The notes beneath the pieces were generated by a model, which was not told where the DNA came from, made no database searches, and saw only the letters and a program-made list of their open reading frames with translations. The position numbers and the translations under genes are program-made. From the NCBI GenBank assembly GCA_024407775.1, contig JAKSVV010000005.1:1-34464 (forward strand): 34,464 nucleotides of DNA, written 5' to 3'. This document shows, one piece after another, positions 1,184-33,479 of the stretch (position 1 is its first letter; each line of letters starts with the position of its first letter). Source of the stretch: Clostridia bacterium. GTDB lineage: Bacteria; Bacillota; Clostridia; Lachnospirales; JAKSVV01.

Positions 1184-4100
1184 TTACTCTTCGTCTTCTT
1201 TCTTTCTTGCGATAAAAAGAACACTAAAGCCACCAAATACAAGTGCGAGTCCGCAAACGATTGGTGCCCAAAGGCTTGAGATTAAACCACCTGTCTGAGG
1301 TAATTTAGCTACTGCCTGTGGAGGAGTCTGTGTAACTACAACTGGAGTCTTTGGAGATGGTGTTGGTTCTGGATCCTTTGGATCATCCTTAGGGTCATCC
1401 TTTGGATCTGGATCAGGATCATTTCTTGTATATCTAAAGACAATCTTGTAACTGTTCTTTTCGATAACAAAATTATATGACTTCTTGATTTCAGAAACCT
1501 TTTCGTCATTTACCTTAACCCATGCAAGTTTATAATCACTCTTGCCTGCGTACTTTGTAAGAGTATCCTCTGTCCATTCGTCCTTAAGCTTGAATGTCTT
1601 ATTTCTTGTCTCAACACTACCAACAAATTTACCATTGCTGTAGTACTCATGAACTACTGTACCTGTTAAATCAGGACCGTAGAATTCATAGTTGATTTCG
1701 ATTGCAAAATCCTTACTAAATTCATATGACTTGCTATCTGCTGTAAATTCACTATCCTTTACACCATCAACAATTACATTAATCATTTCATAAGTATCGC
1801 CATCATAAACCTTCTTAAGTGAAACGTTTCTCTTAAGTGAATCTATGAATAAATCTGGATCTTCATCAACTGTATATGTCTTTCCGTCCCAGAGATTCTT
1901 ATATATATGCTTAACTGTTCCCTTAAGTACTGGAACTGTAAGTTCATAATAGTAATCTACTGTTGTATTAGCTTCGTAAGTATCAGCGTAATTCTTAAGT
2001 GTACTTAAGTCTGCTGTTACCTTAACGCCATTTACTTCAATGGCTGTGAGCTTGTATGTTCTACCATCGTATTCAGGAATGATATCTTCAGAGTAGCTAA
2101 AGCTTCTCTTAAAGTCATTATCTATTCCCTTAACTGTGTTCTTGTCTGTTCCAAGTACACCCTTATTAAGTGTGTAGTGGTGGAATGACTTAACATTAAG
2201 GTCTTCTGTACTAAGCTCGTAGAAGTACTGAATATGTACATCCTTATCACCCTTCTTAATAGGATCAAATGAGTACTCATCAAGTAACTCTGGTGCATCT
2301 GTTGCATTGCCTTCGGCATCAACAAATTTAACAGCTACTAACTTATAAACATTACTATCATCAGGGCAAGTTGTGATTGCTTTAGATGTCTTAAGACTAA
2401 AGTATTCTTCCTTTGTACCCTTATGGTCATACTGCTTATTAAAGTCAACGTCCTTATAGAAGTGATCTTCTACAAAGCTGTATCTTGGATAACTTGCTAC
2501 ATAGTTATATGTAATTTCGATGTTACCATCTTTAACTGCATTAAATGTATAGCTATCTTCCTTTGATACTTCTTCATTGTTAACTTCAACCTTTACAAGT
2601 TCCCACTCAATTCCATTAAAGTTTGGTCTTGAATAAGATGTGTAATCATATGTGTATGATTTTGTTGGAACTTCATCTGTGCCTGATAATTCAGCTGGAT
2701 TATCAAGATGTGTATAGATGAATTTCTCTGTAATGTTTGCTCTCTTAGCTGTATAATAGTAATTAATAGTTACATCTTTATCATCTTCACAGAAGAAGCT
2801 ATAAGACTCGTCATAAACCTTTGAAGGTTCTGTTTCATCAGCCTTTGTAAGCATTACGTAACTAAAGTCGAAAGGTACACCGTTAAGTTCAGGAATGCTC
2901 TTTGAATCCTGCTCTTTATAACTCTTGCTAATTGCCTTAGCTGTATCTTCAACCATGTTACCATTTGCATCTTCATAGAAGTGCTTTTCTGTGAAATTGT
3001 AAGGTTTCCAGCTTGCTGTATAGTAGTAATCAACAACAACATCTCCGTCTGTGTAAGCATCGAAAATCTTGCTATCAAATTTTTCTACTTTCTTGCCATT
3101 AACCTTAACTTCGGTAAGTTCAAATACTACATTCTTATATTCTGGCTTTGACTTTGACTCAATATCAAACTGATAATCAATTGCCTTACCAAGAATATTT
3201 CCATCTAATGAATCATCATCTGTATGATCATAATAATGGTTTTCTGTGAATGAGTACTTAGGTGCATCGTAATAGAATTTAACTGTTACATCATGTGATT
3301 TTTCGCTTTCGAATGTATATGATGTATCATATTTTTCTCCGCTAATTGTATCACTTGTGATTTCAGCTTTTTCAAATGTATATGTTAATCCGTTATAAGA
3401 TGTATTAGCATCAGTTGTGTAAGTTCCCTTATACTTCTCGCTTACGCTCTTACTTGGATCAATCACATAATCAACTTTGCCGTTTTCTTTAACTTTATAA
3501 TAATGCTCTACATTTACATTGTACATTGGCCATTCAGCCACGTAGTTGTAAGTAATAATAACATCATCTTTATAGTCAGAAGCTAAAATCTTATATGCTT
3601 CTTCAACTGGCATTGTCTTCTTGTTTATTGTTACAGATACAAGAGTAAATGTTACACCCTTATAAACAGGCTTAGACTTTGATGTGTAATCAAAACTAAA
3701 TTCAGTTGGTCCGAATTTAACTTCACCTGGCTTACTATCTAATGTATCATCATCTAAATGATCATAGTTATAAACCTCTGTAATCTTATAAACAGGTGCA
3801 TTGTAATAGTAATTAACAACAAAGTCTTTATCATCATCACTGAAGAATGAGAACTCTGTCTTATCACTATTTGTTAATACGTTACTTGTCTTAGCTGACT
3901 TATACTCTGATTTCTCAAATGTATATGTCTCACCATTATAACTAAAGTTTGGAGCTGTATCCTTTGTGCCCTGGTATGTGCCATCTTCGCTGTTAGCTTC
4001 AACGTACTTACCCTTGCTTACTTCATAGAAATGATGAATTTCATAATTACATGTTGCCCATGATGCTACATAGTTATAAACGATTGTTACATCGCCCTTA

Positions 4101-7100
4101 TAATCTGAAGCAAGAATCTTGTAAGATTTTTCTGGAGTTACAGTTGTTCCATTAATAGTTACACTATCAAGAGTAAATGTTACACCCTTAAATTCTGGTT
4201 TGTAATTTGATGTATAATCAAACTTAAACTCTGTTGGACCAAACTTAACTTCATTTTCCTTACTATCCTTACTATCATCATTTAAGTGATCGTAGTTATG
4301 GATTTCAGTAATGTTATGAACTGGTGCAGTATAGTAGAACTTAATAACTGCGTCCTTATCATCATCACTATAAATTTCATATGACTCATTTAAGCCAGTC
4401 TTAAATTCGTTACCAGTTTTAGCTGACTTGAATTCTGACTTTTCAAAATCATATGTGATTCCATTGTATACATTGTTTGAACTGATCTTTTCTGTTCCCT
4501 TATATGTATCAGACTTTGTGTTAGCCTTTGTATACTCTCCAGGTGCAGTTTCATAGTAGTGTTCTACTAAGTATGTGCATTCATCAAAATCAATTTCATA
4601 TGTATAAACAATCTTAACGTCTCCGTCAACAAATGAACTGAATGTGTAAACATCTTTCCAATTCTTTTCATCAACTTTGTTTCCGTTAATAGTTACAGAT
4701 ACAAGCTTATAAGTTTTTCCGTTATAAGTATACTTAGGACTTGATTCCTTATTGTATGTATAATCTACTGGATCATTATCAATCTTTCCGTTAAGTGATG
4801 AATCACTAATATGGTTATAGAAATGTTCTTCTTCAAATGTATGCTTTGGTGCAGTATAATAGAAGTTAACTACAAAGTCTTTATCAACTTCGGCATTAAA
4901 TGTATAAGAAACTTCGTTCTTATCCTGCTTACTTGGCTCAAGTGTTGATGTATAATCTGAACTCTTAAGCACGTATGTCTTGCCGTTGTAATTAAATATA
5001 GCTTTTGCAGTCTTTTCATTCTTGTAGCTTCCCTTATCTACAGGCATGCTTTCCACAAATTTACCAGACTCTACTTCATAGAAGTGATGAATCTCATAAT
5101 TGAAATATGGATTTTCTGCGCTGTAGTAGAATACTACATCTACCTTACCATCCTTTACATCCTTGTCAGTAATCTTTACAAGATCGCTAAGTGTAATCTC
5201 CTCGCCATTTACTGTTACCTTATCAAGTGTGAAAGTTTCATTTTTGTACTCTTTCTTTGATTTAGCTTCAGCAGTAAACTTAAAGTCGATTGGATCCTCT
5301 TCTACTGTTCCATCCTTTGCATCGTTTTCATGATCATATACATGCTTAACGTTAAGCTTAAAGATTGGAGCATTGAAGTAATACTCGATAGCTACATTAC
5401 CATCTACATCACTATTGAAATTAAATTCTTTAGTTGTATTTGGATATGTATTCTTTCCATCTTCTGAGAACTTTGACTCTCTAAAAGTATAAACCTTGCC
5501 GTCATAAATGTAATCGTTGTCTGTAAGGTTAACTTTCTTGTCTCCCTTATATGACTGATTATTAGCCTTAGATGTATCTTCAATGTCACCATTTTCTGTT
5601 TCATAGAAGTACTTTACGCTATAATTACATTCATTGTAATCTGCTTCATAGTAGAAATCAATTTCAACATCCTTATCATAAGCTCCTTCAAACTCATAAT
5701 GAGTTCCAGGATAAATATTTCTTGCAGGATTTGAAGCAAAATTGAAAATTCCCATCTCTGAATCGTATCTTACTTTAACAAGTTTCCAAACAATACCGTT
5801 ATGGTCTGTTACTGCATCTGCAGATGTCTTAACCTTATAATCAGTTGCTGTTCCAAGTACTTCATCATCAAGTGCTGTTCCTGTTAAGAAATCATAATGA
5901 TGATTAATTGTAATCTTGTGTACTGGCGCTTTATGATAATAGCTTACTACAACATTTCCGTCCTCATCGCTGAAGAACTTCTGCTCTGAAGTTATATCCT
6001 TAGCTGTTTCTGGATCTCCATCATTTGTAGAAATCTTTACATCAACTAATGTATAATCTTCACCATCATGACTAGGTGTATCATTTGTTGTAAGGTTGCC
6101 CTTATACTCTTTATGATCAACTGTAGTTACTGGTACATAATCACCGTTCTCATCTTCGTAGTAATTAATTACTGTGTAAGTATATGTCTTATAGTCAGCT
6201 TCGTAGTAATATTTAATATCAACATTACCATCTTTCTGTGCTTCAAACATATATGACTGAGCAAAACCTGTTTCGCCCTTCTTATATTCCTTACCATTAA
6301 TAACTACTTTGACAAGATCAAAGAGTACATTATTATATGTAGTTTCAGCAATAGACTGCTTTGAAAACTTATAAGATGTGTTAACCTTGTTAGGGAAATC
6401 CTTTGAAAGGTTTGCATCACTCTTATGTGTATAATAGTGTGACTCTGTGAATTTATATTCTGGAGCGTTATAGTAATACTGTACTTCAACCTTACCGTCT
6501 TTGCTTGCAGTGAATGTCATATTCTGATCATTACCCTGTACAAGTTCGCCGCCGTTTCTTGAAACTTTGCTGTATGCAAAAGTATAAGTTACGCCGTCTT
6601 TAACGTTATCGATTTCAGTATCATATGTTGTCTTATAAGAATCTTTGATCATCTTAGATGTATCTTCAACATAGTTCTCATTTGAACCTGTTTCGAAGAA
6701 ATGTCTAACAACGATATCATATTCTGGATATACAGCCTTATAGATGTATGTAATTTCTACATTTTTATTTGTACCTGAGAAGAATGAATATTCATCTTCG
6801 ATTAAAGCGCCCTTATGTGATACTCCATTAACTGGATCACCAGTAGCATCTTTAATGATTACTTCATCAAGTACCCAATCAGCTGCATGTTCTGCATAAC
6901 TTGCATTTGGCTTAGATTTTCTTTCAAATTTATATGTTCCGTTGTATGTAACCTTACTTGAATCTAATGCATCATCTTCATGATCATAGATGTAAGTTTC
7001 CTTAAAGTTATAAAGTCTAGCCTTATACTTGTAAGTTACAACGAAATCGCCATCGTCCTTTGAATTGAATAACTGAAGATCTTCTGTAGGTCTATCGATA

Positions 7101-10100
7101 GGATCACCTGTAGTTTTCTTTTCAATTACTTCTACAAGTTCGTAAAGATCTTTATTAACAAGTGGATCACCAATTGTTTTGATAGTCTTATTATAACTAC
7201 CTTCATCACCTGTTTTTGTTGATGTTGTTCCATCTTCTTCTTCGTACTCGTAAACAACCTTATAGCTGTAAGCATCCTTTGTGTAATAGTATGTTACTAC
7301 TACATTCTTGTTAGGATTTGCTTTAAAGTTGAATGATCTACCTAACTGCTTTACACCACTTGGCTTATCTGCTGTTTCAGTAATAGCATAACTAAATGTA
7401 TAATCATTTTCTTTATGCTCTCTAGTTGCTGGTGCTGTACTAGAAGTTTTGATTGTATACTTCTCGTTTCTTATATCTTCCTTGTCAGTTTCGTTTGTAC
7501 CATCGAGATATACATAAAACTCTTTGATATTAAACTCTCTAGCTTTGTACTTATAAGTTACTGTGAAGTCACCATCATCATCCGAATTGAAATCCTGTGT
7601 GCTCTTTGTAGGTCTATCTTCTGGGTCGTTGCCATCCTTCTTTTCTGTAACTTTTTCAAGTTCATAGTACTCATCGGCATCTGGGTCACCTGTTGTGGTA
7701 ACTGTTGTCTTGTATGTACCAGGATGTTCTTCAGGATCCTTATCTGGATACTCATAAATAACTGTATACTTGTAATCCTTTAAGTTATAATAGAATCTTA
7801 CGCTGCTATCTCTGCAAATATCAGCAATTAATCCAACGCTTTCTACCTTACCGTTATCAACAAAGTCAGAAGTTTTATATGTCTTAACTTCTGTATTTTT
7901 AAGAACATAACCTTCTTTATCCTTTGATGATACTATCTGTGATGTACTGTATTTACCACTATCAGCTAACTTAGTATCTTCAATGTATGTTCCAAAATTG
8001 TTAGGATCTTCGTAATAATACTTAGCATCCCAATTGTACTTTGGAAGTTCATATACATATGTATACTTAACTACAACATTACCGTCCTTATCAGCTGTAA
8101 ATGTATGATTAGTTGCTGCTGCATCTTTATCATTAATTGTACATGATGTAAGAACGTATGGATCTTCAGTTTTAGGCTGTGATGTCTTTGTCTCACTATT
8201 CTTGTAATACTCAACATCGCCCTTTACTGTATGACTCTTTGAAGAATCTTCCTTGTTAACATATTCATGTATTACCTGGAATGAATACTCATCGAGTTCA
8301 TAATAGAAATCATACTTTGCATTTTTGTCTGTAGTTGTGTAACTGTCTTTGATATCTACTTCAACATCATCACATGTTACTTTAGTAAGTTTATAGTTTA
8401 CTCCGTTGTAAGTTGGAATAGGTTTAGCTTCAAATGTACCTGACTCATAATCTGTATCTTCCTTAGTGAAAGTTGGATTATCACCAGTACGCTTGTTTAA
8501 ATAATGATGATTTTCTGTGTAATGATACTTTACTGGTTCAACAAAAGCTGTTGAATTAAACTTAATATAACAGTTTGACTTACCAGCACCTCTTTCAAGG
8601 TAGAAAAGCTTCATTTCATGCTGTTCTTTTTCTGCAAGTCCATTAGGGAATAAGTCCTTAAGGTTACCCTGTGACTGTCCGTTAACGATTCTCGCACCTG
8701 TTGCATAGTCAATAGTACCTGTAGTTGCACCATGGACACCACCAATATCAAGAACTAACTTTCCATCAATGAATACCCAAACGTCATCATCACCACGGAA
8801 CTCAAACATCATGTCGCTACCATCAGCAAGTTTACCACCAACTGGCATTGTGAATGGAAGATCAATCTGCATACCAAAGAAGTAATCTTTTTCTTCGTTA
8901 ATTCTAAACTGATTTCCAGCATAGTCTGTAATCTCATTGAAAGGCATGAATGCTTTTGTATAACCATTATCGTTAATGTAACCTGGATCATGGTAAAGTT
9001 TTAAGTTACCGTTCTCAACATTTTTTGTTGTAGTAAAGTGACTATCACTATCGAAAACTAAGTAACCATTACCACCATCAGCAAATGGGAAACCATATGT
9101 TCCAACAGGATTTGTAAATGGATTTCTAGAACCATTTGTCATCTGAACTTTAAGCTGGAACCCATTATCAAGGTTATTTTCAGCAAGGCCAGTAACTACG
9201 CTTGAACCACCAGTAAATTGGTTAGGCCAACCACCACGGTTACCACCAAATAAGAACTGCCAATTTTCTGCGCCCCAATCATCTTCATTGAAATTGTAGA
9301 AGCTTGCTGTCATATAAGCAGCTGGTGTATCGTACTTGATTGGTAAGTTACCATTTGGTACTGTAAGGCCTGAGCCTGAAACAACTGCAATAACTTCAAG
9401 ATCTTCAGCTAGTGCCTGTGAATAATCATACTGTGCCATAGCTGACTCAACACCATTATTTACGATCCAGCACTGAGCAGCTTTAATCTTAGTTGTCTCA
9501 TCATAACCTGTTGCGTCGAAAAATTCCTGTGTCTTAATAAATTCATTTGCAAATGGCTTAACACCACTTTGGTCTTTAAAGAACTCATCAAGCTCGGCAT
9601 TAAACGAATATGCAGGAAGCTGATCTCTAACCTTCAAATAACTCTGATTATTCCATTCTTTCGAATCATAAATCAAAGCTGTAAACTTGAAAGTTACTTT
9701 AGCTCCCTTAGCTTTAACAAATACCTTAACAAATGCATTTTCTGTAGCTTTGCTATAGTCAAAGTTTGCTGCAAGTGTATCAACTCCGTTATCACTAATG
9801 TATACTTCGCCAAGTTCAAGATCCTGACCAAAAGCGCTCTTTACATCGTTTGTAACATTTGAATTTACTGCTGCTAAAACTTCATCAGCATTTGCTGGGA
9901 AAACTGTGTCTACCTTTACAGGTATGTCATTTACGTCATCTACATAATGTATCATATACCCCTTAATTACTGGAGGTACGATTGGATCATTTTCTTCATT
10001 AGCTTTAAGCTCGACCCTAACCTTTACATTCTGTGTTACATTGACGTAATCAAAATCATTAATGGCATAACCATTAGGACTAATGCTGCTAATTGAATAT

Positions 10101-10588
10101 GTTCTGCCATCATTAAGATTTAATGCTGACTTAACTTCTTCATTGTTTGCTGCAACATCAGCTGCTTTTGCTGTTAACTCTTCTGCGGAATTTGGGAATT
10201 CCTCATTGATTGTAACAGTAACACTTCCGTTACCAAGAACAACTTCCATATCATACAACTGGATTCTAACTGGCTTTTCGCCATTAGGATCTGGTGTAGG
10301 AATAGGATCTTCTGGTTCTGGAGAAGGCACTGGGTCCTCTGGTGGAATTTCGCCATTAGGCAATTCTCCGTTTGGATCCCCAGTTGGGTCTTCATTTGGT
10401 AATTCACCATCTGGTTCTGGATTCTCATTTCCCGAAGGATCTGGGTCTTCATTACCTGGTAATTCACCATCTGGTGCTTCATTTCCTGGCTCTGGGCCTT
10501 CTGCTGCGTTAACGTTCATAGGAACATTAATACTGTTGAAAGTCAGAGTGACTGCTAATGCGCTTACTAATAATCTTTTCAGCTTCAT
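1184..10588 (-). CDS. Giant LPXTG-anchored, multi-repeat surface protein with fibro-slime-type domain
   Basis: This is a 3134-residue exported protein. Residues 1-28 look like a signal peptide ending in an Ala-rich site, and 29-106 are a Pro/Gly/Glu/Asp linker. Roughly 420-685 resemble the fibro-slime domain (a PA14-like fold), with GDDDVWVFIDGK at 599-610 followed by a conserved Asp-Ile-Gly-Gly-Val-His. From about 687 to 3050 there are some 27 tyrosine- and aspartate-rich units of about 88 residues that resemble MucBP-type beta modules. The end carries a DP/KDD linker, LPQTG at 3096-3100, a membrane segment and a basic-then-acidic tail, which are the signals for sortase anchoring to the wall. 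An adhesive, stalk-like role is inferred; the ligand is unknown. AAGGAGAG precedes the ATG. It prefers CAG for Gln, unlike the flagellins and most housekeeping genes nearby. No sortase gene lies in the window. Confidence 0.9.
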   Translation of the reverse strand: MKLKRLLVSALAVTLTFNSINVPMNVNAAEGPEPGNEAPDGELPGNEDPDPSGNENPEPDGELPNEDPTGDPNGELPNGEIPPEDPVPSPEPEDPIPTPDPNGEKPVRIQLYDMEVVLGNGSVTVTINEEFPNSAEELTAKAADVAANNEEVKSALNLNDGRTYSISSISPNGYAINDFDYVNVTQNVKVRVELKANEENDPIVPPVIKGYMIHYVDDVNDIPVKVDTVFPANADEVLAAVNSNVTNDVKSAFGQDLELGEVYISDNGVDTLAANFDYSKATENAFVKVFVKAKGAKVTFKFTALIYDSKEWNNQSYLKVRDQLPAYSFNAELDEFFKDQSGVKPFANEFIKTQEFFDATGYDETTKIKAAQCWIVNNGVESAMAQYDYSQALAEDLEVIAVVSGSGLTVPNGNLPIKYDTPAAYMTASFYNFNEDDWGAENWQFLFGGNRGGWPNQFTGGSSVVTGLAENNLDNGFQLKVQMTNGSRNPFTNPVGTYGFPFADGGNGYLVFDSDSHFTTTKNVENGNLKLYHDPGYINDNGYTKAFMPFNEITDYAGNQFRINEEKDYFFGMQIDLPFTMPVGGKLADGSDMMFEFRGDDDVWVFIDGKLVLDIGGVHGATTGTIDYATGARIVNGQSQGNLKDLFPNGLAEKEQHEMKLFYLERGAGKSNCYIKFNSTAFVEPVKYHYTENHHYLNKRTGDNPTFTKEDTDYESGTFEAKPIPTYNGVNYKLTKVTCDDVEVDIKDSYTTTDKNAKYDFYYELDEYSFQVIHEYVNKEDSSKSHTVKGDVEYYKNSETKTSQPKTEDPYVLTSCTINDKDAAATNHTFTADKDGNVVVKYTYVYELPKYNWDAKYYYEDPNNFGTYIEDTKLADSGKYSTSQIVSSKDKEGYVLKNTEVKTYKTSDFVDNGKVESVGLIADICRDSSVRFYYNLKDYKYTVIYEYPDKDPEEHPGTYKTTVTTTGDPDADEYYELEKVTEKKDGNDPEDRPTKSTQDFNSDDDGDFTVTYKYKAREFNIKEFYVYLDGTNETDKEDIRNEKYTIKTSSTAPATREHKENDYTFSYAITETADKPSGVKQLGRSFNFKANPNKNVVVTYYYTKDAYSYKVVYEYEEEDGTTSTKTGDEGSYNKTIKTIGDPLVNKDLYELVEVIEKKTTGDPIDRPTEDLQLFNSKDDGDFVVTYKYKARLYNFKETYIYDHEDDALDSSKVTYNGTYKFERKSKPNASYAEHAADWVLDEVIIKDATGDPVNGVSHKGALIEDEYSFFSGTNKNVEITYIYKAVYPEYDIVVRHFFETGSNENYVEDTSKMIKDSYKTTYDTEIDNVKDGVTYTFAYSKVSRNGGELVQGNDQNMTFTASKDGKVEVQYYYNAPEYKFTESHYYTHKSDANLSKDFPNKVNTSYKFSKQSIAETTYNNVLFDLVKVVINGKEYKKGETGFAQSYMFEAQKDGNVDIKYYYEADYKTYTYTVINYYEDENGDYVPVTTVDHKEYKGNLTTNDTPSHDGEDYTLVDVKISTNDGDPETAKDITSEQKFFSDEDGNVVVSYYHKAPVHKITINHHYDFLTGTALDDEVLGTATDYKVKTSADAVTDHNGIVWKLVKVRYDSEMGIFNFASNPARNIYPGTHYEFEGAYDKDVEIDFYYEADYNECNYSVKYFYETENGDIEDTSKANNQSYKGDKKVNLTDNDYIYDGKVYTFRESKFSEDGKNTYPNTTKEFNFNSDVDGNVAIEYYFNAPIFKLNVKHVYDHENDAKDGTVEEDPIDFKFTAEAKSKKEYKNETFTLDKVTVNGEEITLSDLVKITDKDVKDGKVDVVFYYSAENPYFNYEIHHFYEVESGKFVESMPVDKGSYKNEKTAKAIFNYNGKTYVLKSSDYTSTLEPSKQDKNEVSYTFNAEVDKDFVVNFYYTAPKHTFEEEHFYNHISDSSLNGKIDNDPVDYTYNKESSPKYTYNGKTYKLVSVTINGNKVDEKNWKDVYTFSSFVDGDVKIVYTYEIDFDECTYLVEHYYETAPGEYTKANTKSDTYKGTEKISSNNVYNGITYDFEKSEFKSAKTGNEFKTGLNESYEIYSDDDKDAVIKFYYTAPVHNITEIHNYDHLNDDSKDSKENEVKFGPTEFKFDYTSNYKPEFKGVTFTLDSVTINGTTVTPEKSYKILASDYKGDVTIVYNYVASWATCNYEIHHFYEVSKGKYVEANSEDGTYQGTKDTAPNFSYNGETYTFEKSEYKSAKTSNVLTNSDKTEFSFFSDDDKDFVVNYYYNAPVYKITEVYNYDHLDDDTLDSKPGEVKFGPTEFSFDYTSKSKPVYKGVTFTLVSVTINKKTMPVEEAYKILASDYKDDVIITYNYVAEWPMYNVNVEHYYKVKENGKVDYVIDPSKSVSEKYKGTYTTDANTSYNGLTYTFEKAEITSDTISGEKYDTSYTFESEKSHDVTVKFYYDAPKYSFTENHYYDHTDDDSLDGNILGKAIDYQFDIESKSKPEYKNVVFELTEVKVNGKKVEKFDSKIFDAYTDGDVVVDYYYTASWKPYNFTEKHFYEDANGNMVEDTAKAISKSYKEQDSKSIPELNGVPFDFSYVMLTKADETEPSKVYDESYSFFCEDDKDVTINYYYTAKRANITEKFIYTHLDNPAELSGTDEVPTKSYTYDYTSYSRPNFNGIEWELVKVEVNNEEVSKEDSYTFNAVKDGNIEITYNYVASYPRYSFVEDHFYKDVDFNKQYDHKGTKEEYFSLKTSKAITTCPDDSNVYKLVAVKFVDAEGNATDAPELLDEYSFDPIKKGDKDVHIQYFYELSTEDLNVKSFHHYTLNKGVLGTDKNTVKGIDNDFKRSFSYSEDIIPEYDGRTYKLTAIEVNGVKVTADLSTLKNYADTYEANTTVDYYYELTVPVLKGTVKHIYKNLWDGKTYTVDEDPDLFIDSLKRNVSLKKVYDGDTYEMINVIVDGVKDSEFTADSKSYEFSKDFAIEINYEFYGPDLTGTVVHEYYSNGKFVGSVETRNKTFKLKDEWTEDTLTKYAGKSDYKLAWVKVNDEKVSEIKKSYNFVIEKNSYKIVFRYTRNDPDPDPKDDPKDDPKDPEPTPSPKTPVVVTQTPPQAVAKLPQTGGLISSLWAPIVCGLALVFGGFSVLFIARKKEDEE
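1430..8530 (-). repeat. About 27 protein-level repeats of ~88 residues
   Basis: Each unit opens with an aromatic-rich strand (for example YSFTENHYYDH or CNYEIHHFYEV), then a loop, a Tyr-Asn-Gly-Tyr strand with Leu-Val or Phe-Glu, and closes with Asp-Gly-Asp-Val followed by YYY-x-A. DNA identity between units looks modest, so the array is old rather than freshly expanded. Units were counted by eye from the opening strands. Confidence 0.8.
2230..6470 (-). repeat. Higher-order A-B alternation inside the repeat array
   Basis: Sixteen consecutive units alternate between two types. Type A follows an Ala-Pro junction and carries DHLDD/NHISD/THKSD-like loops. Type B follows an Ala-(Ser/Asp/Glu)-(Trp/Tyr) junction and carries FYEVxxGK/YYETxxGE-like loops. 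The building block is therefore a pair of about 178 residues present eight times. Confidence 0.7.
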
Positions 10589-23061: not shown

Positions 23062-24285
23062 CTAGCCTTGTAATAATTGTAAAGCTTGTTGAGGTCTTGC
23101 GTTAGCTTGAACAAGCATAGCTTGTGCGGCTTGTTGTAATATGTTATTCTTTGTATAATCCATCATTTCTTCAGCCATATCAACGTCTCTAACTGTAGAT
23201 TCAGCAGATGTCATGTTTTCAGCTGTTGTATTTAAGTTGTTCATTGTGTATTCAAGTCTGTTTTGAATAGCCCCGTATTTACTACGTTCATCAGATACTA
23301 ATTTGATTGCTTTATCGATAACATCGATAGCGTTGTTAGCACCTTCTCTTGTTGAAATGTTTAATGAGAATTGAACATTATCAGAATTTGTTCCGTTGTT
23401 AACATTAGCTTCAGCAGCCCAAACACCATTGTTTGCAGCTACACTTGAAGCATCTGTTGCTTCACTAACAATTCCTAATCTTAAAGCTCTCATATCATTA
23501 AATTCTGTATTAATAACTTGGTTAGAGTTAGCTCCAACGTGGAAGTAAACACTGTTATCAATTCCTGTTACTGCAGCTTTTGCAGCAGCACCAGCAGTAT
23601 TTGCAATACTATTTATTTTAGCTCCACCAATTTCACTTATTGTTAAACCAACTGCATTAGCAGCAACGTCACCAGCTACTACTTGTTGAAGAGTAACTGT
23701 TATAGCTGCTTTTGCAAATCCGTCTTCTGCAACTACTTTCCAAGATTGACCATCAATAATGAATTGATCACCTTTTGCAAGAGCATTTTTTAATCCTCCT
23801 GTTGCTAATGTTAATGTAACAGTAGATTTAGCTTCTGTTACAGCGTCAGCTGTTTCTTTTTTAGTTTTATCACCATTAAGAATTTTCATTCCGTTGAATT
23901 CTGTTGTAGCACCGATTCTATTAATTTCAGAAGTTAATTGTGCCATTTCAGATTGTAGGGCTTCTCTATCTTCTTGAGCGTTTGTATCTGTAGCAGCTTG
24001 TACTGCTAGTTCTCTCATACGTTGTAAGATAGAATGTTCTTCGTTTAATGCTCCTTCAGCAGTTTGTATCATTGATACTCCGTTAGCAGCATTTGTAGAA
24101 GCTTGATTTAAACCTCTAATTTGTGATCTCATTTTTTCAGAAATTGAAAGTCCGGCAGCGTCATCTGCGGCTTTATTAATTTTATATCCTGAAGATAATT
24201 TTTCCATTGATCTATCAGCTGAGTTACCAGCGATTCCTAAACTTTTATAAGTGTTTAACGCACTAATATTATGTGCAATAACCAT
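23062..24285 (-). CDS. fliC: Flagellin (fla1)
   Basis: This 407-residue flagellin is the filament subunit. The N-terminal D0/D1 part (1 to about 145) begins MVIAHNISALNTYKSLG and includes LSSGYKINKAADDAAGLSI. A variable surface part (about 146-290) follows, and the C-terminal D1/D0 part ends in the conserved NARPQQALQLLQG. It lies 131 bases downstream of its near twin (25625 start), differing mainly in the variable region. No terminator separates the two, so they may share a transcript. The leader carries a CGGA-loop hairpin 19 nt upstream of AAGGAGGA. Confidence 0.95.
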   Translation of the reverse strand: MVIAHNISALNTYKSLGIAGNSADRSMEKLSSGYKINKAADDAAGLSISEKMRSQIRGLNQASTNAANGVSMIQTAEGALNEEHSILQRMRELAVQAATDTNAQEDREALQSEMAQLTSEINRIGATTEFNGMKILNGDKTKKETADAVTEAKSTVTLTLATGGLKNALAKGDQFIIDGQSWKVVAEDGFAKAAITVTLQQVVAGDVAANAVGLTISEIGGAKINSIANTAGAAAKAAVTGIDNSVYFHVGANSNQVINTEFNDMRALRLGIVSEATDASSVAANNGVWAAEANVNNGTNSDNVQFSLNISTREGANNAIDVIDKAIKLVSDERSKYGAIQNRLEYTMNNLNTTAENMTSAESTVRDVDMAEEMMDYTKNNILQQAAQAMLVQANARPQQALQLLQG

Positions 24286-24416: not shown

Positions 24417-25625
24417 TTAGCCTTGTAATAATTGTAAAGCTTGTTGTGGTCTTGCGTTAGCTTGAACTAACATTGCTTGTGCAGCTTGTTGTAAGATGTT
24501 GTTCTTTGTATATGACATCATTTCTTCAGCCATATCAACGTCTCTAACTGTAGATTCAGCAGATGTCATGTTTTCAGCTGTTGTATTTAAGTTGTTCATT
24601 GTATATTCAAGTCTGTTTTGAATAGCCCCGTATTTACTACGTTCATCAGAAACTAATTTAATAGCTTTATCGATAACATCGATAGAAATATTAGCTCCTT
24701 CTCTTGTAGAAATATTTAATGAGAATTGAACATTGTCAGAATTTGTTCCGTTATTTACGTTAGCTTCAGCAGCCCAAACACCATCGTTTGCAGCTACGCT
24801 TGTAGCATCTGTTGCTTCACTAACAATTCCTAATCTTAATGCTCTCATATCATTAAATTCTGTATTAATAACTTGATTTGAGTTAGCTCCAACGTGGAAG
24901 TATACACTATTATCTACTCCAACTACAGCATCTTTCTTAGCTTTACCTTCTGTATTTGTAATACTTTTAATTTTTGATCCGCCAATTTCACTTATTGTTA
25001 AAGCAACTGAATTAGCAGCAACGTCACCAGCTATTACTTGAGTTAATGTAACTGATTCAGCATTTTTTGCAGCAGCAGTAGCTTTCCATGATTGACCATC
25101 AATTATAAAATGTGTATTTGCATCAATTGCATTTTTTAATGCATCTGTTTCAAGTGTAATTACAGCAGCACTTGCTGTTACAGCATCAGCTGTTTCTTTC
25201 TTTGTTTTGTCTCCATTAAGAATTTTCATTCCGTTGAATTCTGTTGTAGCACCAATTCTGTTAATTTCAGAAGTTAATTGTGCCATTTCAGATTGTAGGG
25301 CTTCTCTATCTTCTTGAGCGTTTGTATCTGTAGCAGCTTGTACTGCTAGTTCTCTCATACGTTGTAAGATAGAATGTTCTTCGTTTAATGCTCCTTCAGC
25401 AGTTTGTATCATTGATACTCCGTTAGCAGCATTTGTAGAAGCTTGATTTAAACCTCTAATTTGTGATCTCATTTTTTCTGAGATAGATAGTCCGGCAGCA
25501 TCATCAGCAGCTTTGTTAATTTTGTAACCTGAACTTAATTTTTCCATTGATCTATCGGCTGAATTACCAGCGATACCTAAACTTTTGTAAGTGTTTAAAG
25601 CACTTATGTTGTGTGCAATAACCAT
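24417..25625 (-). CDS. fliC: Flagellin (fla2), near twin of fla1
   Basis: This 402-residue flagellin is almost identical to fla1 over the first ~150 and last ~115 residues and differs in the middle (about 151-290), the surface-exposed part in flagellins. A stretch of 218 bases (25261-25478) is identical at DNA level to 23921-24138 of fla1, while the flanks differ at silent sites, pointing to gene conversion. AAGGAGG precedes the ATG. The proximal leader holds two GGA-bearing hairpins. It may be transcribed with fla1. Confidence 0.95.
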   Translation of the reverse strand: MVIAHNISALNTYKSLGIAGNSADRSMEKLSSGYKINKAADDAAGLSISEKMRSQIRGLNQASTNAANGVSMIQTAEGALNEEHSILQRMRELAVQAATDTNAQEDREALQSEMAQLTSEINRIGATTEFNGMKILNGDKTKKETADAVTASAAVITLETDALKNAIDANTHFIIDGQSWKATAAAKNAESVTLTQVIAGDVAANSVALTISEIGGSKIKSITNTEGKAKKDAVVGVDNSVYFHVGANSNQVINTEFNDMRALRLGIVSEATDATSVAANDGVWAAEANVNNGTNSDNVQFSLNISTREGANISIDVIDKAIKLVSDERSKYGAIQNRLEYTMNNLNTTAENMTSAESTVRDVDMAEEMMSYTKNNILQQAAQAMLVQANARPQQALQLLQG

Positions 25626-25879: not shown

Positions 25880-25913
25880 TAAAAAAATAGAGCATCTAAA
25901 AATAGATCCCCTC
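25880..25913 (-). terminator. Terminator-like hairpin upstream of fla2
   Basis: ATCTA (25894-25898) pairs with TAGAT (25903-25907), and outer GAG/CTC arms (25890-25892 and 25911-25913) add an asymmetric second stem. A T-rich run follows on the minus strand. It would end a transcript begun near 26137. Confidence 0.5.
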
Positions 25914-26035
25914 ACATACTGGTTTTAAAAATATAATATAGACATAAGTAAAAAACATTTAATCTTATGCAATCTTTGTAATAATTATAGCATTAAATTA
26001 AAATATTCTTTTTCTTATTATTCTTATTACTTTGT

Positions 26036-26049
26036 TCCCATCCGTGAGA
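26036..26049 (-). promoter_or_regulatory. CGGA-loop hairpin 1 in the candidate small RNA
   Basis: TCTCA-CGGA-TGGGA, a 5-bp stem with one G-T wobble, the same loop as the fla1 leader hairpin. Confidence 0.45.
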
Positions 26050-26070
26050 TTGTAATAATATTAATCATTA

Positions 26071-26088
26071 AAAAGCATCCGTGCTTTT
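26071..26088 (-). promoter_or_regulatory. CGGA-loop hairpin 2 in the candidate small RNA
   Basis: AAAAGCA-CGGA-TGCTTTT, a perfect 7-bp stem with GGA in the loop. Confidence 0.55.
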
Positions 26089-26143
26089 ATTTATATATAC
26101 ACAACATAAACTAACATTTGTTAGTTCACATTCACCTAACTTA

Positions 26144-26171
26144 ATTATACATAGTTTTAGTTTTTAGTCAA
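26144..26171 (-). promoter_or_regulatory. Promoter upstream of the candidate small RNA / fla2
   Basis: TTGACT (26166-26171), a 16-base spacer and TATAAT (26144-26149). The context AAAAGTATTGAC matches the promoters of fla3 and of the gene starting at 33479. Confidence 0.7.
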
Positions 26172-26275: not shown

Positions 26276-27385
26276 TTAATCTTTACTTTCACTGCTTGTA
26301 TTTATATCAGAATTATTTGAAACTTTATTAGAATTTGTTTTAGGTATGTCTAATAAACTTGTATGTTTTACTGGCATACTCCCTTGTGATCCAAAGGAAT
26401 CTTGTAATAATGATAATGTTGATTCTGGCATAACCATTGCTTGTGATAAAAAGCTTTGAGCTGATGCTACTAATATTGAACTCTTAGTAAACTCCATCAT
26501 CTCACTTGCTATATCTGTATCAACTATTCTTGAGTTAGCTGCCATTAAATTTTCTTTTTCTATAGTTAAACTATTAAATGTATGTTCTAGTCTATTAACT
26601 ATTGCACCATATTTACTTCTTTCTTGTGATACAACATTAACTGCTGCATCTATTACATCTATTGCAGCATTAGCTCCTTCTCTTGTAGTAATATCAAGTG
26701 AGTGTGCTTCGAATTCACTAGTGATTGCATTAATAACATTCTTACTATTAGCATATATTCCTTGATAAACCTTACCACCAATTTCAACATCTTCAAGAAC
26801 AAGACCAAGTGCAGTCTTTGGTTCTTTAGCTATACCAATGGCGATAGCTGTCATATTAGAAAAAGATACATTAATAGTTTCATCACGATTAGCACCTACT
26901 TGGAAGTATAATGAATTATCATCTCCTTCTATTACTATAGATCCTTCATATATCCTGCTATCTGATTTAGCACCAGTTAAAAGACTCATTCCATTAAACT
27001 CAGTTGTCTCACCTATTCTATTTATTTCATTAGTAAGTTCAACAACTTCTTTTTGCATAGCTTCTTTATCATCAAGGCTAGTAGTATCAGTAGCACTATT
27101 AACACTAAGTTCTCTCATACGCAAAAGAGCCCTATGAGTTTCCCCTAGAGCATTTTCAGCAATTTGTACCATTGATACAGCATCTTCTGTATTAACAGTA
27201 GCTTTATTTACACCTCTTATTAAGGCTTTCATTTTTTCACTAATAGATAGACCTGCAGCATTATCTGCTGATCTATTAATTTGATACCCAGTAGAAAGCT
27301 TCTCCATTGCTTTCTCTTTAACCTTATCATTTCTCTTTAATGACTTATAAGTATCAATAGCTATAACATTACTAGCTATAACCAT
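26276..27385 (-). CDS. fliC: Divergent flagellin with C-terminal tail (fla3)
   Basis: This 369-residue flagellin is clearly homologous at both ends (MVIASNVIAIDTYKSL; LSTGYQINRSADNAAGLSI; TTEFNGMSLLTG; YGAIVNRLEHTF) but is the most divergent of the five. The normal flagellin end, here STLSLLQ, is followed by about 40 extra residues rich in Ser, Asn and Lys. Flagellin C-termini pack inside the filament core, so the tail is unusual and hints at a minor, cap-near or specialised subunit. I start at the ATG at 27383-27385; an earlier in-frame GTG lies before the Shine-Dalgarno AAGGAGGAG and cannot be the main start. It is monocistronic with a strong promoter, a GGGAT-loop hairpin and a terminator. 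Confidence 0.92.
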   Translation of the reverse strand: MVIASNVIAIDTYKSLKRNDKVKEKAMEKLSTGYQINRSADNAAGLSISEKMKALIRGVNKATVNTEDAVSMVQIAENALGETHRALLRMRELSVNSATDTTSLDDKEAMQKEVVELTNEINRIGETTEFNGMSLLTGAKSDSRIYEGSIVIEGDDNSLYFQVGANRDETINVSFSNMTAIAIGIAKEPKTALGLVLEDVEIGGKVYQGIYANSKNVINAITSEFEAHSLDITTREGANAAIDVIDAAVNVVSQERSKYGAIVNRLEHTFNSLTIEKENLMAANSRIVDTDIASEMMEFTKSSILVASAQSFLSQAMVMPESTLSLLQDSFGSQGSMPVKHTSLLDIPKTNSNKVSNNSDINTSSESKD

Positions 27386-27607: not shown

Positions 27608-28459
27608 TTATTGAAGAAGTTGTAAAGCTTGTTGAGGTCTTGCATTTGCTTGAACTAACATAGCTTGTGCAGCTTGTTGTAAGATATTGTTCTTTGTATA
27701 TTCCATCATTTCTTTTGCCATATCTACGTCACGGATTGTAGATTCAGCAGAAGTCATGTTTTCAGCTGTTGTATTTAAGTTGTTAATAGTGTATTCAAGT
27801 CTATTTTGAATAGCACCATATCTAGATCTTTCTTTAGATACTTGGCTAATAGCTGCATCGATAACATCGATAGCTGCGTTAGCTCCTTCTCTTCCAGAAA
27901 TATCTACGCTCTTTAATTGATCAGCAACTGCGATAGTTCCACCTTCACCAACTTTACCTAATTTGTCAGAACCCATATCGTCGAAAGTTACAGCAATAAC
28001 TTGGTCTTTATTAGCTCCAACATGGAATTTAGTTTCACCTTTAGTACCATCTAATAATTTCATTCCGTTGAATTCTGTTGTATCAGAAATTCTATCAACT
28101 TCAGCAATTAATTGTTGCACTTCAGATTGTAAAGCTTGTCTATCTTCAGTTGCGTTAGTATCAGTAGCAGATTGAACTGCTAGTTCTCTGATTCTTTGTA
28201 AGATTGAGTGAGTTTCGTTTAAAGCACCTTCAGCTGTTTGTATCATAGATACACCATTAGCTGCGTTAGTTGATGCTTGGTTAAGACCTCTAATTTGAGA
28301 TCTCATTTTTTCAGAAATACTAAGTCCTGCGGCGTCATCACCAGCACGGTTAATTCTATAACCTGAACTTAATTTTTCCATAGATTTGTTCATGCTTCCA
28401 CCAGCAAATCCTAATGCCTTATAAGTATTTAAGGCTGCTACGTTATGTGTTATTACCAT
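27608..28459 (-). CDS. fliC: Short flagellin (fla4)
   Basis: This 283-residue flagellin has almost no variable domain: the D1 arms are joined by a short loop after TTEFNGMKLLDG. It keeps MVITHNVAALNTYKALG at the start and NARPQQALQLLQ at the end. The frame stays open upstream to 28570, but that part is the conserved leader RNA. The start is the ATG at 28457-28459, with AAGGAGGGG before it. Its leader is nearly the same as that of fla5. It is monocistronic. Confidence 0.95.
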   Translation of the reverse strand: MVITHNVAALNTYKALGFAGGSMNKSMEKLSSGYRINRAGDDAAGLSISEKMRSQIRGLNQASTNAANGVSMIQTAEGALNETHSILQRIRELAVQSATDTNATEDRQALQSEVQQLIAEVDRISDTTEFNGMKLLDGTKGETKFHVGANKDQVIAVTFDDMGSDKLGKVGEGGTIAVADQLKSVDISGREGANAAIDVIDAAISQVSKERSRYGAIQNRLEYTINNLNTTAENMTSAESTIRDVDMAKEMMEYTKNNILQQAAQAMLVQANARPQQALQLLQ

Positions 28460-28464
28460 AATAA

Positions 28465-28594
28465 TCCCCTCCTTGAGATAATCTAGCATCGGCATCCTTG
28501 CCGTTCCATCGTGTGACAACCACTTGTGCATGAAAAAATTTACACGGGTTGCGGTAATTTGATTGATCAAGTCAATCTTAAAATATTAACCTAT
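28465..28594 (-). promoter_or_regulatory. Conserved structured leader of fla4
   Basis: About 130 nt upstream of fla4 align closely with 30210-30337 before fla5. They contain an AGGA-loop hairpin near the SD, a long-range CAACC/GGTTG pairing and a distal GATTGA/TCAATC hairpin (28561-28577). Both local hairpins show compensatory changes between the copies. Confidence 0.7.
28490..28503 (-). promoter_or_regulatory. GGA-loop hairpin in the fla4 leader
   Basis: CGGCA-AGGA-TGCCG. In fla5 the outermost C-G pair is T-A. The context CAAGGATG is close to the CsrA consensus. Confidence 0.7.
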
Positions 28595-28692
28595 GATTTA
28601 TCCTGTACAGATAAACGATGTGTTTTGCCTGCTAGTACGCTTGGACAAGGTATAAAGAAAATTCGTGCAAATACTCTTTTTCTTATATATAT

Positions 28693-29110: not shown

Positions 29111-30205
29111 TTATCTTAAAAGTTGTAAAGCTTGTTGAGGTCTAGCATTAGCTTGAACTAACATAGCTTGTGCAGCTTGTTGTAAGATACTTGTCTTTGT
29201 ATATTCCATCATTTCTTTAGCCATATCTACATCACGGATAGTAGATTCAGCAGAAGTCATGTTTTCAGCTGTTGTATTTAAGTTGTTGATTGTGTATTCA
29301 AGTCTGTTTTGAACAGCACCATATTTAGATCTTTCTTTAGATACTTTTGTTATAGCATAGTCTATAGCATTAAGAGCTCTATTTGCTCCTTCTCTAGTAG
29401 AAATATCTATTTTTGTGACTACAGCATCACCAACTTTTTTACCAACACCTAAGCTTACTGCTCCCATGTCTTCAAATGTAACACCAATTACTTGGTCTTT
29501 ATTTGCACCAACATGGAAGTATACTGATGTATCATCACCTTTAGTACCAACGGCACCACTTGTTACTGTGAAATCTGTACCAGTTGCTAGTTTAATATCA
29601 GCAACTTGTTTTGTTACTTCATCAGCAGTATGTACAATATCTCTTACAGTAACTGTGACTTTAGCACCAGTTCTTTCAATATCATAATCTTTGTTATCAA
29701 ATTTTTCATAGAATGCTTTCGCAGCAGCTTCATCAGCAAATGTTTTTTCTGCTTTTGTTGCTGTAGCTCCAGTATATTTAATATCTTTTTCACCATTTAA
29801 AATTTTCATTCCGTTGAATTCAGTAGTATCAGAAATTCTTTGAATTTCACTTACTAATTCATCAACTTCAGATTGTAAAGCTTCTCTATCTTCAGTAGCG
29901 TTAGTATCAGTAGCAGATTGTACTGCTAGTTCTCTAATTCTTTGTAAGATAGAGTGAGTTTCATTTAACGCACCTTCAGCAGTTTGAATCATAGAAACAC
30001 CATTAGCTGCGTTTGTAGACGCTTGGTTAAGACCTCTAATTTGAGATCTCATTTTTTCAGAAATTGATAAACCAGCGGCGTCATCACCAGCACGGTTTAT
30101 TCTATAACCTGAACTTAATTTTTCCATAGATTTGTTCATGCTTGTTCCTGATGAACCTAATGCCTTATATGTATTTAAGGCTGATACGTTATGTGTTATT
30201 ACCAT
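29111..30205 (-). CDS. fliC: Flagellin (fla5)
   Basis: This 364-residue flagellin starts MVITHNVSALNTYKALG and ends in NARPQQALQLLR. Its conserved arms are closest to fla4, but about 80 residues are inserted after TTEFNGMKILNGEKD (roughly 145-235), forming the variable surface part. AAGGAGGGG precedes the ATG. It shares with fla4 the long conserved leader and the extended -10 promoter, so the pair probably arose by duplication including the regulatory region, followed by gain or loss of the middle domain. Confidence 0.95.
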   Translation of the reverse strand: MVITHNVSALNTYKALGSSGTSMNKSMEKLSSGYRINRAGDDAAGLSISEKMRSQIRGLNQASTNAANGVSMIQTAEGALNETHSILQRIRELAVQSATDTNATEDREALQSEVDELVSEIQRISDTTEFNGMKILNGEKDIKYTGATATKAEKTFADEAAAKAFYEKFDNKDYDIERTGAKVTVTVRDIVHTADEVTKQVADIKLATGTDFTVTSGAVGTKGDDTSVYFHVGANKDQVIGVTFEDMGAVSLGVGKKVGDAVVTKIDISTREGANRALNAIDYAITKVSKERSKYGAVQNRLEYTINNLNTTAENMTSAESTIRDVDMAKEMMEYTKTSILQQAAQAMLVQANARPQQALQLLR

Positions 30206-30209
30206 AATA

Positions 30210-30337
30210 TCCCCTCCTTGAGATCATCTAGTATTGGCATCCTTGCCATTCCTTCATGCAACAACCACTTGTGCATAGATAAATTTACACGGGTTGCGGT
30301 AATTTGATTGCTTAGCAATCATAAAATATTAACCTAT
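30210..30337 (-). promoter_or_regulatory. Conserved structured leader of fla5
   Basis: This is the counterpart of the fla4 leader. The distal hairpin is GATTGC/GCAATC (30306-30320), so one pair has changed from A-T to C-G with pairing kept. Two blocks, one of 15 and one of about 30 bases, are unchanged between the copies. Confidence 0.7.
30235..30248 (-). promoter_or_regulatory. GGA-loop hairpin in the fla5 leader
   Basis: TGGCA-AGGA-TGCCA, the covarying partner of the fla4 hairpin. A further GGA lies 8 nt upstream in both leaders. Confidence 0.7.
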
Positions 30338-30412
30338 AAATTATTAACCTATAAAAATTTCGGACACAAATAAGATAATTAGTATTTGCATAAACTTTCT
30401 TATTTATATTAT

Positions 30413-30826: not shown

Positions 30827-31678
30827 TTAGTTATTTAAGAATAAATCTACAACGTTTCTATTTGGTTCTATTTTTTGAGATCTTTGTGCTAGATTTATTT
30901 CATATCTAATTGCATTTTGTAACTGTTCAACTTGTCTACGCGCAACTTCTGCGCTTCTTATTTTAGCTTGCTCAGCTGAGTAAGCACTTTGGTCTAATTC
31001 TAAGCATTCTGGATATCTTGTAAGTTCACTAATATTAATAGTAACTTCACGTCTATAAGAATCTATTTTAGAAATTGCTGTTCCTATTACCGATAATGCT
31101 GTAGATGCTCCTGCGGGTTCTGTTACGTCGAAAGTATAAGGTGGCATATAGCTTTCACCTTGGATTCTTACACTATCAAGGCTTACTTTAGATATATTAT
31201 CTACACTAAGTCCTAATGTTTGTGAATCCACCCTTTCTAACCTAACTTCAATTTTATTATTATCGGTATCAGAATCTGTATAGCTGCCATCAAGTAATGG
31301 TTTGCCATCAAATTCTTGATTAATAGAGATCTTATTTATATCATCAACGTATTTTATTAACTTTTCTTCGATATCTACTTTTTCATCATGTGATAGCGCT
31401 GTAAAATCAGTATTCTTAACTAGATCTTCCATCTTAGTTAGTATCTCACGATCCTTACTAAGCCCGCTATCTGCCATTTGAAGAGCACTTATTTTAGCTT
31501 CATATTTTTTATGAATATCGTTTGTTTGATAAGTACTTTTAATATCACTCTTTATAGTTTCAGCTTTAATACTTTCAGTTTCTACTTTTTCAACCTTTTC
31601 TTTAGGTTTGAAATTAGTATCAACCTTTTGCACAGAACGAATTTCATCTAATCTAGCAGCTTGCATTTCTAATATCAT
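30827..31678 (-). CDS. Divergent flagellin-like protein
   Basis: This 283-residue protein lacks the flagellin N-terminus (no MVIxHN segment) and instead starts with a charged, low-complexity stretch. Downstream it follows the flagellin plan: a helical segment ALQMADSGLSKDREILTKME, then NQEFDGKPLLDG where flagellins have TEFNGMKLLDG, a GASTALSVIGTAISKI segment matching the ANAAIDVIDAAI helix, and a C-terminal helix with an Ala/Arg/Gln pattern. It may be a minor filament component or a secreted relative; function is unproven. The start is the ATG at 31676-31678, with AGGAGGTG before it. It shares EIRSVQ near its N-terminus with the 94-residue neighbour. Its leader has an AGGA-loop hairpin. Confidence 0.6.
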   Translation of the reverse strand: MILEMQAARLDEIRSVQKVDTNFKPKEKVEKVETESIKAETIKSDIKSTYQTNDIHKKYEAKISALQMADSGLSKDREILTKMEDLVKNTDFTALSHDEKVDIEEKLIKYVDDINKISINQEFDGKPLLDGSYTDSDTDNNKIEVRLERVDSQTLGLSVDNISKVSLDSVRIQGESYMPPYTFDVTEPAGASTALSVIGTAISKIDSYRREVTINISELTRYPECLELDQSAYSAEQAKIRSAEVARRQVEQLQNAIRYEINLAQRSQKIEPNRNVVDLFLNN

Positions 31679-31707
31679 AATAATCACCTCCTTGCACTAA
31701 TAGTATT

Positions 31708-32762: not shown

Positions 32763-33479
32763 CTAATATAAATTATTATCACTAACTGCTTGTGATCTTA
32801 TTAATTCTTGTCCACGAGTATATATTTCACTCTTTAATGATTGCATAAGTTCACGTGCAACGCTTGCATCTACATAGCTAAATCCAGAAGATCCGCTTGT
32901 TAATTCACTAGTTTTTTCATCTATCTTTGATTTACATGTTGCTATTTCATTTGTTATCTTTGTAATAGCGCTTTCTATTGTAGCCATTGCATTTGTTAGA
33001 TCTTCTTTTGAGTCAATCTTCAAATCTTGTAATGGTAAGAAATTTTTACCTCCAAGTCTTATGCTAGGAATTTGAAAGCTTTCATTACCGTCATCACCTT
33101 CAAATAACATTACGCCTTGGTAAGTTGTCTTATCAGATACTTCTTTAAGCTCTTCTTTCATGAGAGATATGCGATTATTGATATCTTCAATATTGCTATA
33201 CTTACCACTAATAATATCTTCTTTTGTTTGTTCTAAGACTTTAGCTTGTTTCTTTAATCCAGAACTTGCAACTTGAAACCTAGTAACTTCATCTTGAGTA
33301 CTTAGTGCCTTAACATTTCTTGTAGCAATATCTTCATTACCATCATGTCTTATTTCGCTTAATATTTCTTTTTCTTCCATTATTTCTCCAGCATTCTTTA
33401 TACTACTAGTCTTACCTGCTGGTTTTTCGTTATTAAATCCAACACTTTGTAATCCACTTAGCACATTTTCCACTCTCAT
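32763..33479 (-). CDS. Second divergent flagellin-like protein
   Basis: This 238-residue protein starts MRVENVLSGLQSVG and is mostly helical. The central part keeps the flagellin order: SSGLKKQAKVLEQTKEDI (first D1 helix), KTTYQGVMLFEGDDGNESFQI (compare TEFNGMKLLDG...FHVG), NAMATIESAITKI (compare ANAAIDVIDAAI). The end, VDASVARELMQSLKSEI, recalls the VDMAKEMMEYTKNNI helix. The N-terminal D0 segment and the NARPQQALQLL ending are missing. FlgL was considered because of the MRV start, but the rest fits flagellin arms better. AAGGAGG precedes the ATG. It is monocistronic with a consensus promoter and a GGGAT-loop hairpin. Confidence 0.6.
   Translation of the reverse strand: MRVENVLSGLQSVGFNNEKPAGKTSSIKNAGEIMEEKEILSEIRHDGNEDIATRNVKALSTQDEVTRFQVASSGLKKQAKVLEQTKEDIISGKYSNIEDINNRISLMKEELKEVSDKTTYQGVMLFEGDDGNESFQIPSIRLGGKNFLPLQDLKIDSKEDLTNAMATIESAITKITNEIATCKSKIDEKTSELTSGSSGFSYVDASVARELMQSLKSEIYTRGQELIRSQAVSDNNLY

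Follow-up and report, generated by a model that had tools for sequence, protein, structure and literature searches.

Upstream of the flagellin genes fla2 and fla1 we found a leader region of about 510 nt which, according to our predictions, is gated by a terminator and responds to CsrA. This is the reading we favour, although we place its probability somewhat below an even chance. It is based on two hairpins of the CsrA type, a weak terminator-like hairpin downstream of them, a predicted alternative helix between the two, and the recurrence of these parts at a second flagellin locus of the same genome. The window, i.e. the whole stretch of 34,464 nt that was analysed, is contig C70 of a 1.43-Mb assembly which is 70% complete; the G+C content of the window is 31%. 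The flagellin genes cluster in its right part on the minus strand (Table 1), and no terminator was found when the junction between fla2 and fla1 was searched. The genome as a whole contains 15 Flagellin_N matches, located on contigs C2, C69, C70, C82, C91 and C103, which is a large flagellin set for an incomplete assembly of this size. Genes for both CsrA and FliW are present, CsrA (82 aa) being encoded directly after FliW on contig C60. Elsewhere in the window, an ORF of 3134 aa (1184-10588, minus strand) is without any Pfam match.

Table 1. Features of the fla2 leader, the flagellin genes of the window and the second copy of the module on contig C69.
Feature	Position	Strand	Description
Promoter TTGACT-N16-TATAAT	26171-26144	-	sigma-A type, 11/12
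HP1	26088-26071	-	hairpin AAAAGCA(CGGA)TGCTTTT, putative CsrA-type CANGGAUG loop
HP2	26049-26036	-	hairpin TCTCA(CGGA)TGGGA, second putative CsrA-type site
CUCAC	26048-26044	-	5' arm of predicted antiterminator helix P1; overlaps HP2
GUGAG	25915-25911	-	3' arm of predicted P1; overlaps base of terminator stem
Terminator-like hairpin	25912-25881 (stem 25912-25889)	-	AGGG-G-AUCUA-UUUU-UAGAU-G-CUCU, then A and U7
fla2-proximal hairpin	25703-25680	-	AAGGA in a larger loop; possible CsrA site
fla2-proximal CsrA-type hairpin	25676-25663	-	GAGCA(TGGA)TGCTC
fla2 Shine-Dalgarno AAGGAGG	25641-25635	-	also an AAGGA site
fla1	23062-24285	-	flagellin, 407 aa; second gene of the operon; 91% identical to fla2
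fla2	24417-25625	-	flagellin, 402 aa; Flagellin_N and Flagellin_C matches; first gene of the operon
fla3	26276-27385	-	flagellin
fla4	27608-28459	-	flagellin
fla5	29111-30205	-	flagellin
Flagellin-like gene	30827-31687	-	
Flagellin-like gene	32763-33479	-	
C69 promoter TTGACA-N16-TATACT	6254-6227	-	11/12
C69 parts, in order after the promoter			HP1 AAAGCAAGGATGCTTT, extra ATTAAGGATAAT hairpin, HP2 ATCTCACGGATGGGAT, further ACATAAGGATGT, then GTGAGAGGATCTATAATAGATGCTCCTTTTTT

A preliminary description of this DNA had pointed to a strong promoter followed by about 255 nt without an ORF, and both are borne out: the promoter is present, and the fla3-fla2 interval has no minus-strand ORF of at least 60 aa. 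We infer a transcript start near 26137, from which about 510 nt of ORF-poor sequence extend to fla2 (26137-25626). The parts of this leader follow each other in the order HP1, HP2, weak terminator-like hairpin, and finally the CsrA hairpin and the Shine-Dalgarno sequence of fla2 itself. The context AAAAGTATTGAC of the promoter is shared with the fla3 promoter and with that of the gene whose start lies at 33479. It has three exact matches, and four if one mismatch is allowed, compared to 0.67 expected. A near-match, AAAGTATTGACA-N16-TATACT, belongs to the copy on contig C69. Immediately 5' of the promoter there are two tandem copies of AATTTTTTTATAAAAAAGTAT (26213-26172, minus strand), perhaps an A+T-rich upstream promoter element. 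At the level of RNA, folding of the segment 26137-25876 (262 nt) revealed a structure more stable than that of shuffled sequences (z -4.36).

HP1 and HP2 both correspond to CANGGATG hairpins with an ANGGA loop. It had been stated that they read the same, and indeed CACGGATG is found at exactly two positions of the window (26083-26076 and 26046-26039), both of them in ANGGA-loop hairpins. Two occurrences were reached in 3 of 100 shuffles, and no shuffle of the region, out of 1000, gave two ANGGA-loop hairpins. These observations support HP1 and HP2 as putative CsrA-type sites, HP2 of the window being weak when taken alone. The additional GGA described near the end of the module is also there (GGGGAUC), but it lies inside the terminator stem and not in an ANGGA loop. 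The terminator-like hairpin at 25880-25913, likewise part of the preliminary description, is real but imperfect, with -10.2 kcal/mol when folded alone. It was overlooked by a simple terminator scan because its stem contains a G.G mismatch.

A second copy of the module is present in the same genome on the minus strand of contig C69 (L104), where it precedes another tandem flagellin pair. The first gene of this pair shows 84% identity to fla2 and starts at 5662, about 295 nt past GTGAGAGGATCTATAATAGATGCTCCTTTTTT; in the two copies, the distance to the flagellin pair downstream is 260-300 nt. The C69 copy has four ANGGA hairpins as compared to two in the window. The HP1 cores differ solely at the N of ANGGA, the lowest pair having changed from A-U to U-A, and in HP2 a stretch of 15 bases, ATCTCACGGATGGGA, is identical. 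The two leaders are alike in islands only, namely the promoter -35 region, the hairpins HP1 and HP2, and the terminator including the GUGAG that flanks it on the 5' side. In a composition-weighted alignment of the leaders, the HP1-HP2 segment (local score 35.6) and the terminator segment (32.2) scored above 27.8, the highest value among 300 shuffles, while the -35 island (18.1) stayed within the null. A chain-of-exact-matches test between the leaders gave a score of 78 against a null maximum of 95; this test is uninformative because of the A+T richness. The hairpin and its U7 tract are retained in both copies, although both terminators are weak (-10.2 kcal/mol in the window and -7.9 kcal/mol on C69, compared to -12 to -18 kcal/mol for seven other terminators of the window). 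The retention of CsrA-type sites together with a terminator-like end at a second flagellin locus argues for function.

In both copies the HP2 5' arm CUCAC is complementary to the GUGAG at the base of the terminator. The GUG of GUGAG is outside the terminator stem, yet it is conserved in C69. The resulting helix P1 is a predicted antiterminator, mutually exclusive with HP2 and overlapping a putative CsrA site in both copies. Its pairing probability in the free RNA amounts to 0.67-0.99 in the two copies, and the lower pairs of the terminator become weaker. With HP2 locked as a hairpin, these pairs reached 0.91-0.99 in the window and 0.90-0.94 on C69, and the mean probability of the lower terminator stem rose from 0.49 to 0.97 and from 0.17 to 0.92, respectively. 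As controls, the GUG was randomised, the spacer was shuffled, or everything except HP2 and the terminator was shuffled, with 60 trials each; a shift as large as the observed one was reached in 0, 1 and 0 of 60 trials for the window and in 0, 2 and 0 of 60 for C69. The switch is a thermodynamic folding prediction which was devised after the folds had been seen; it draws on just two copies, both of them paralogs within a single incomplete assembly. The terminator overlaps P1 by no more than one or two base pairs, and it is partly formed even in the free RNA of the window.

Based on these predictions, the leader could operate as follows. Without CsrA, CUCAC would pair with GUGAG, the resulting P1 would open the base of the terminator, and RNA polymerase would continue into fla2-fla1. 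Free CsrA would arise when unsecreted flagellin occupies FliW. A CsrA dimer bridging HP1 and HP2 would then block P1, the terminator would close, releasing a short RNA some 255 nt in length, which may retain one CsrA dimer and act as a modest decoy. Such a direction, from CsrA to termination, is consistent with the role of CsrA as a repressor of flagellin. The terminated product could also titrate CsrA in trans. The complete picture, in which a CsrA-controlled intrinsic attenuator precedes flagellin operons and its terminated leader, a mimic of an initiation region, serves as CsrA decoy alongside FliW, is in our opinion doubtful.

CsrA-type hairpins are not restricted to the distal part of the leader. 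An ANGGA-loop hairpin precedes the start of all seven flagellin or flagellin-like genes of the window, mostly just 5' of the AAGGAGG Shine-Dalgarno sequence, and the minus strand harbours nine strict ANGGA hairpins compared to 0.375 expected from shuffles. At fla2, and likewise at fla1, fla4 and fla5, a CsrA-type hairpin is combined with a GGA site over the Shine-Dalgarno sequence. The stem of this hairpin shows a compensatory change between the fla4 and fla5 leaders (CGGCAAGGATGCCG and TGGCAAGGATGCCA). Among flagellin loci of other genomes, with the fla2 locus included, 24 of the 35 scanned leaders have such a hairpin at most 90 nt from the start, as would be expected from the hag and flaA leaders already described (PMC7652899, PMC4894983). 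Extra upstream CsrA hairpins are rare in the flagellin leaders of other genomes (2 of 34, the fla2 locus omitted).

Several further arrangements were observed. The leaders of fla4 and fla5 (28457-28630 and 30203-30370, minus strand) contain a long conserved structured segment, ACCGCAACCCGTGTAAATTT..TGCACAAGTGGTTGT, 5' of the CsrA hairpin, for which no matching Rfam family was found. In Alkalicoccus chagannorensis (L040, 5815-5890) the interval separating a csrA-like ORF from a flagellin gene contains a very strong terminator, whose 5' arm is overlapped by a hairpin with AAGGA in its loop, so that CsrA binding and termination could be mutually exclusive. At the same locus (5412-5441) two ANGGA hairpins are located before the csrA-like ORF and 3' of a sigma-D-like promoter, which suggests that this gene may itself be a CsrA target. 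In UBA5324 (L010, 5774-5852) an interval of the same kind, with a csrA-like ORF on one side and a flagellin gene on the other, contains a terminator-like stem with a nested CCCGGT(AAGGAC)ACCGGG hairpin.

The HP1-HP2 segment resembles a flagellin translation-initiation region, i.e. a CsrA hairpin followed by a Shine-Dalgarno hairpin, minus the Shine-Dalgarno sequence and the start codon. HP2 of the C69 copy (ATCTCACGGATGGGAT) and the Shine-Dalgarno hairpin that precedes fla4 and fla5 (ATCTCAAGGAGGGGAT) agree at all but 2 of 16 positions, and the alignment of the C69 HP1-HP2 segment with the fla5 initiation region scored 27.7, the null maximum being 22.1. With a model built from HP1-HP2 alone (R1), the best weak matches include the genome's own initiation regions of fla1, fla4, fla5 and fla2, and over 52 flagellin loci of other genomes weak matches were obtained with flagellin initiation regions among them. 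HP1-HP2 is thus probably a former flagellin initiation region, or the product of the same constraint. Relatives of the module itself were not found at a greater distance: R1 detected only the two known copies and no third in 295 genomes of the order, and the DNA of the locus gave only short weak matches in 56 genomes, none of them of the same family. In viral contigs a 14-base HP2 pattern retrieved 90 stretches, and R1, applied to 80 of these 90, gave none above 25.1 bits; plasmids gave no match. No Rfam family matched the leader at the gathering score. The C69 copy matched the sponge family CsrC below threshold (13.7 bits, E 0.09; cut-off 61), which at most reflects its ANGGA hairpins.

How else could the module be explained? 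It had been proposed as a CsrA-titrating small RNA, possibly the relic of a flagellin gene. In the former case, a free-standing RNA of about 255 nt would end at a constitutive terminator and act as a decoy in trans only, and fla2 would have its own unrecognised promoter. The CsrA-type sites (two CANGGAUG hairpins in the window, four ANGGA hairpins on C69), the conserved terminator-like end, the lack of a Shine-Dalgarno sequence and a start codon in HP1-HP2 and the sub-threshold CsrC similarity of the C69 copy are in line with this, but that similarity is far below the family cut-off, the two sites of the window copy would suffice for about one CsrA dimer, and the weak terminator is not fully closed in the free RNA. 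Moreover, both copies remain 5' of flagellin genes, and between the terminator and the flagellin start the best promoter reaches 9/12 before fla2 and 8.5 before the C69 gene, compared to 11/12 upstream; a pattern search found no sigma-28 promoter before fla2. While the putative sites and the terminator-like end of the proposed small RNA are supported, its independence is quite unlikely. The alternative already named in the preliminary description, a terminator-gated leader of fla2, fits better because both copies lie 260-300 nt before a flagellin pair, because no convincing promoter follows the terminator, and because of the predicted HP2/terminator switch.

We also considered that fla2-fla1 might simply have a long 5' leader of the ordinary kind with additional CsrA sites, in which the hairpin 25912-25889 neither terminates nor switches and CsrA blocks translation only, the abundant leader possibly titrating CsrA as in the flaA mRNA of Campylobacter (PMC4894983). 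The strong upstream promoter, the weakness of the hairpin and the leaders of fla4 and fla5, which are also about 200-240 nt long when counted from their best predicted promoters, would agree with such a leader. However, the hairpin with its U-tract and GUGAG flank is among the few islands kept, which is hard to explain if it were inert, and we consider an ordinary leader unlikely. Even less can be said for a decayed flagellin gene, in which an internal deletion would have left leader and 3' tail with no present function. The reported 11-base exact match to the 3' end of fla1 and fla2 exists (AATTATTACAA), but it is near chance, since shuffles reached this length in 31% of cases against whole genes and in 1.7% against the tails alone. 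It is absent from the C69 copy, there are no other coding remains, and the same islands were kept in two copies while the remainder drifted. We therefore rejected the 3'-tail relic and regard the decayed gene as very improbable. What stands of the relic idea is an origin of the leader type, supported by the likeness of HP1-HP2 to an initiation region that lacks its Shine-Dalgarno sequence and its start codon.

The terminator-gated leader, which we prefer, would be of interest for several reasons. According to a review from 2020, the joint action of FliW and sRNAs on CsrA is still to be determined in any species (PMC7652899), and the locus is a concrete candidate, with testable bases, for FliW and an RNA antagonist of CsrA in one cell. 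If true, the proposed mechanism would extend the flagellin-FliW-CsrA loop to the control of transcription and would show a flagellin initiation region turning into a regulatory decoy. In the literature searched we found no CsrA-controlled intrinsic attenuator; the review describes the Rho-dependent pgaA case (PMC7652899).

By the sequence features tested, the leader belongs to the hag kind of CsrA/FliW-controlled flagellin leaders; its action as an attenuator or sponge would resemble that of known systems. As in Bacillus subtilis, csrA and fliW are adjacent, and a CsrA-type hairpin and a site covering the Shine-Dalgarno sequence precede flagellin genes (PMC7652899); unlike in hag, a further pair of CsrA hairpins, which lacks a Shine-Dalgarno sequence, is located upstream, and a terminator-like hairpin precedes the gene by about 260 nt. 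The Campylobacter jejuni flaA leader, which titrates CsrA, similarly has two adjacent CANGGANG-motif hairpins in a genome with FliW (PMC4894983), but its sites are within the flagellin mRNA itself, whereas those of the fla2 leader make up a module of their own, followed by a terminator-like hairpin. With the sponges CsrB, CsrC and RsmX/Y/Z the module shares ANGGA hairpins in an untranslated RNA with a terminator-like end. It differs from them in having two sites only (four in C69), in lacking an Rfam match at the family cut-off, in its position in cis before flagellin genes and in the presence of FliW in the genome. In Escherichia coli, CsrA remodels the pgaA leader and thereby causes premature Rho-dependent termination, as summarised in PMC7652899 (citing Figueroa-Bossi 2014); CsrA would act likewise here, but on a predicted intrinsic terminator. 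Finally, in protein-controlled attenuators such as the B. subtilis rplJL leader, the site of the protein (L10 in this case) overlaps an antiterminator arm facing an intrinsic terminator (PMC4538822). The fla2 leader is predicted to have the same layout, with CsrA instead of L10 as the regulator.
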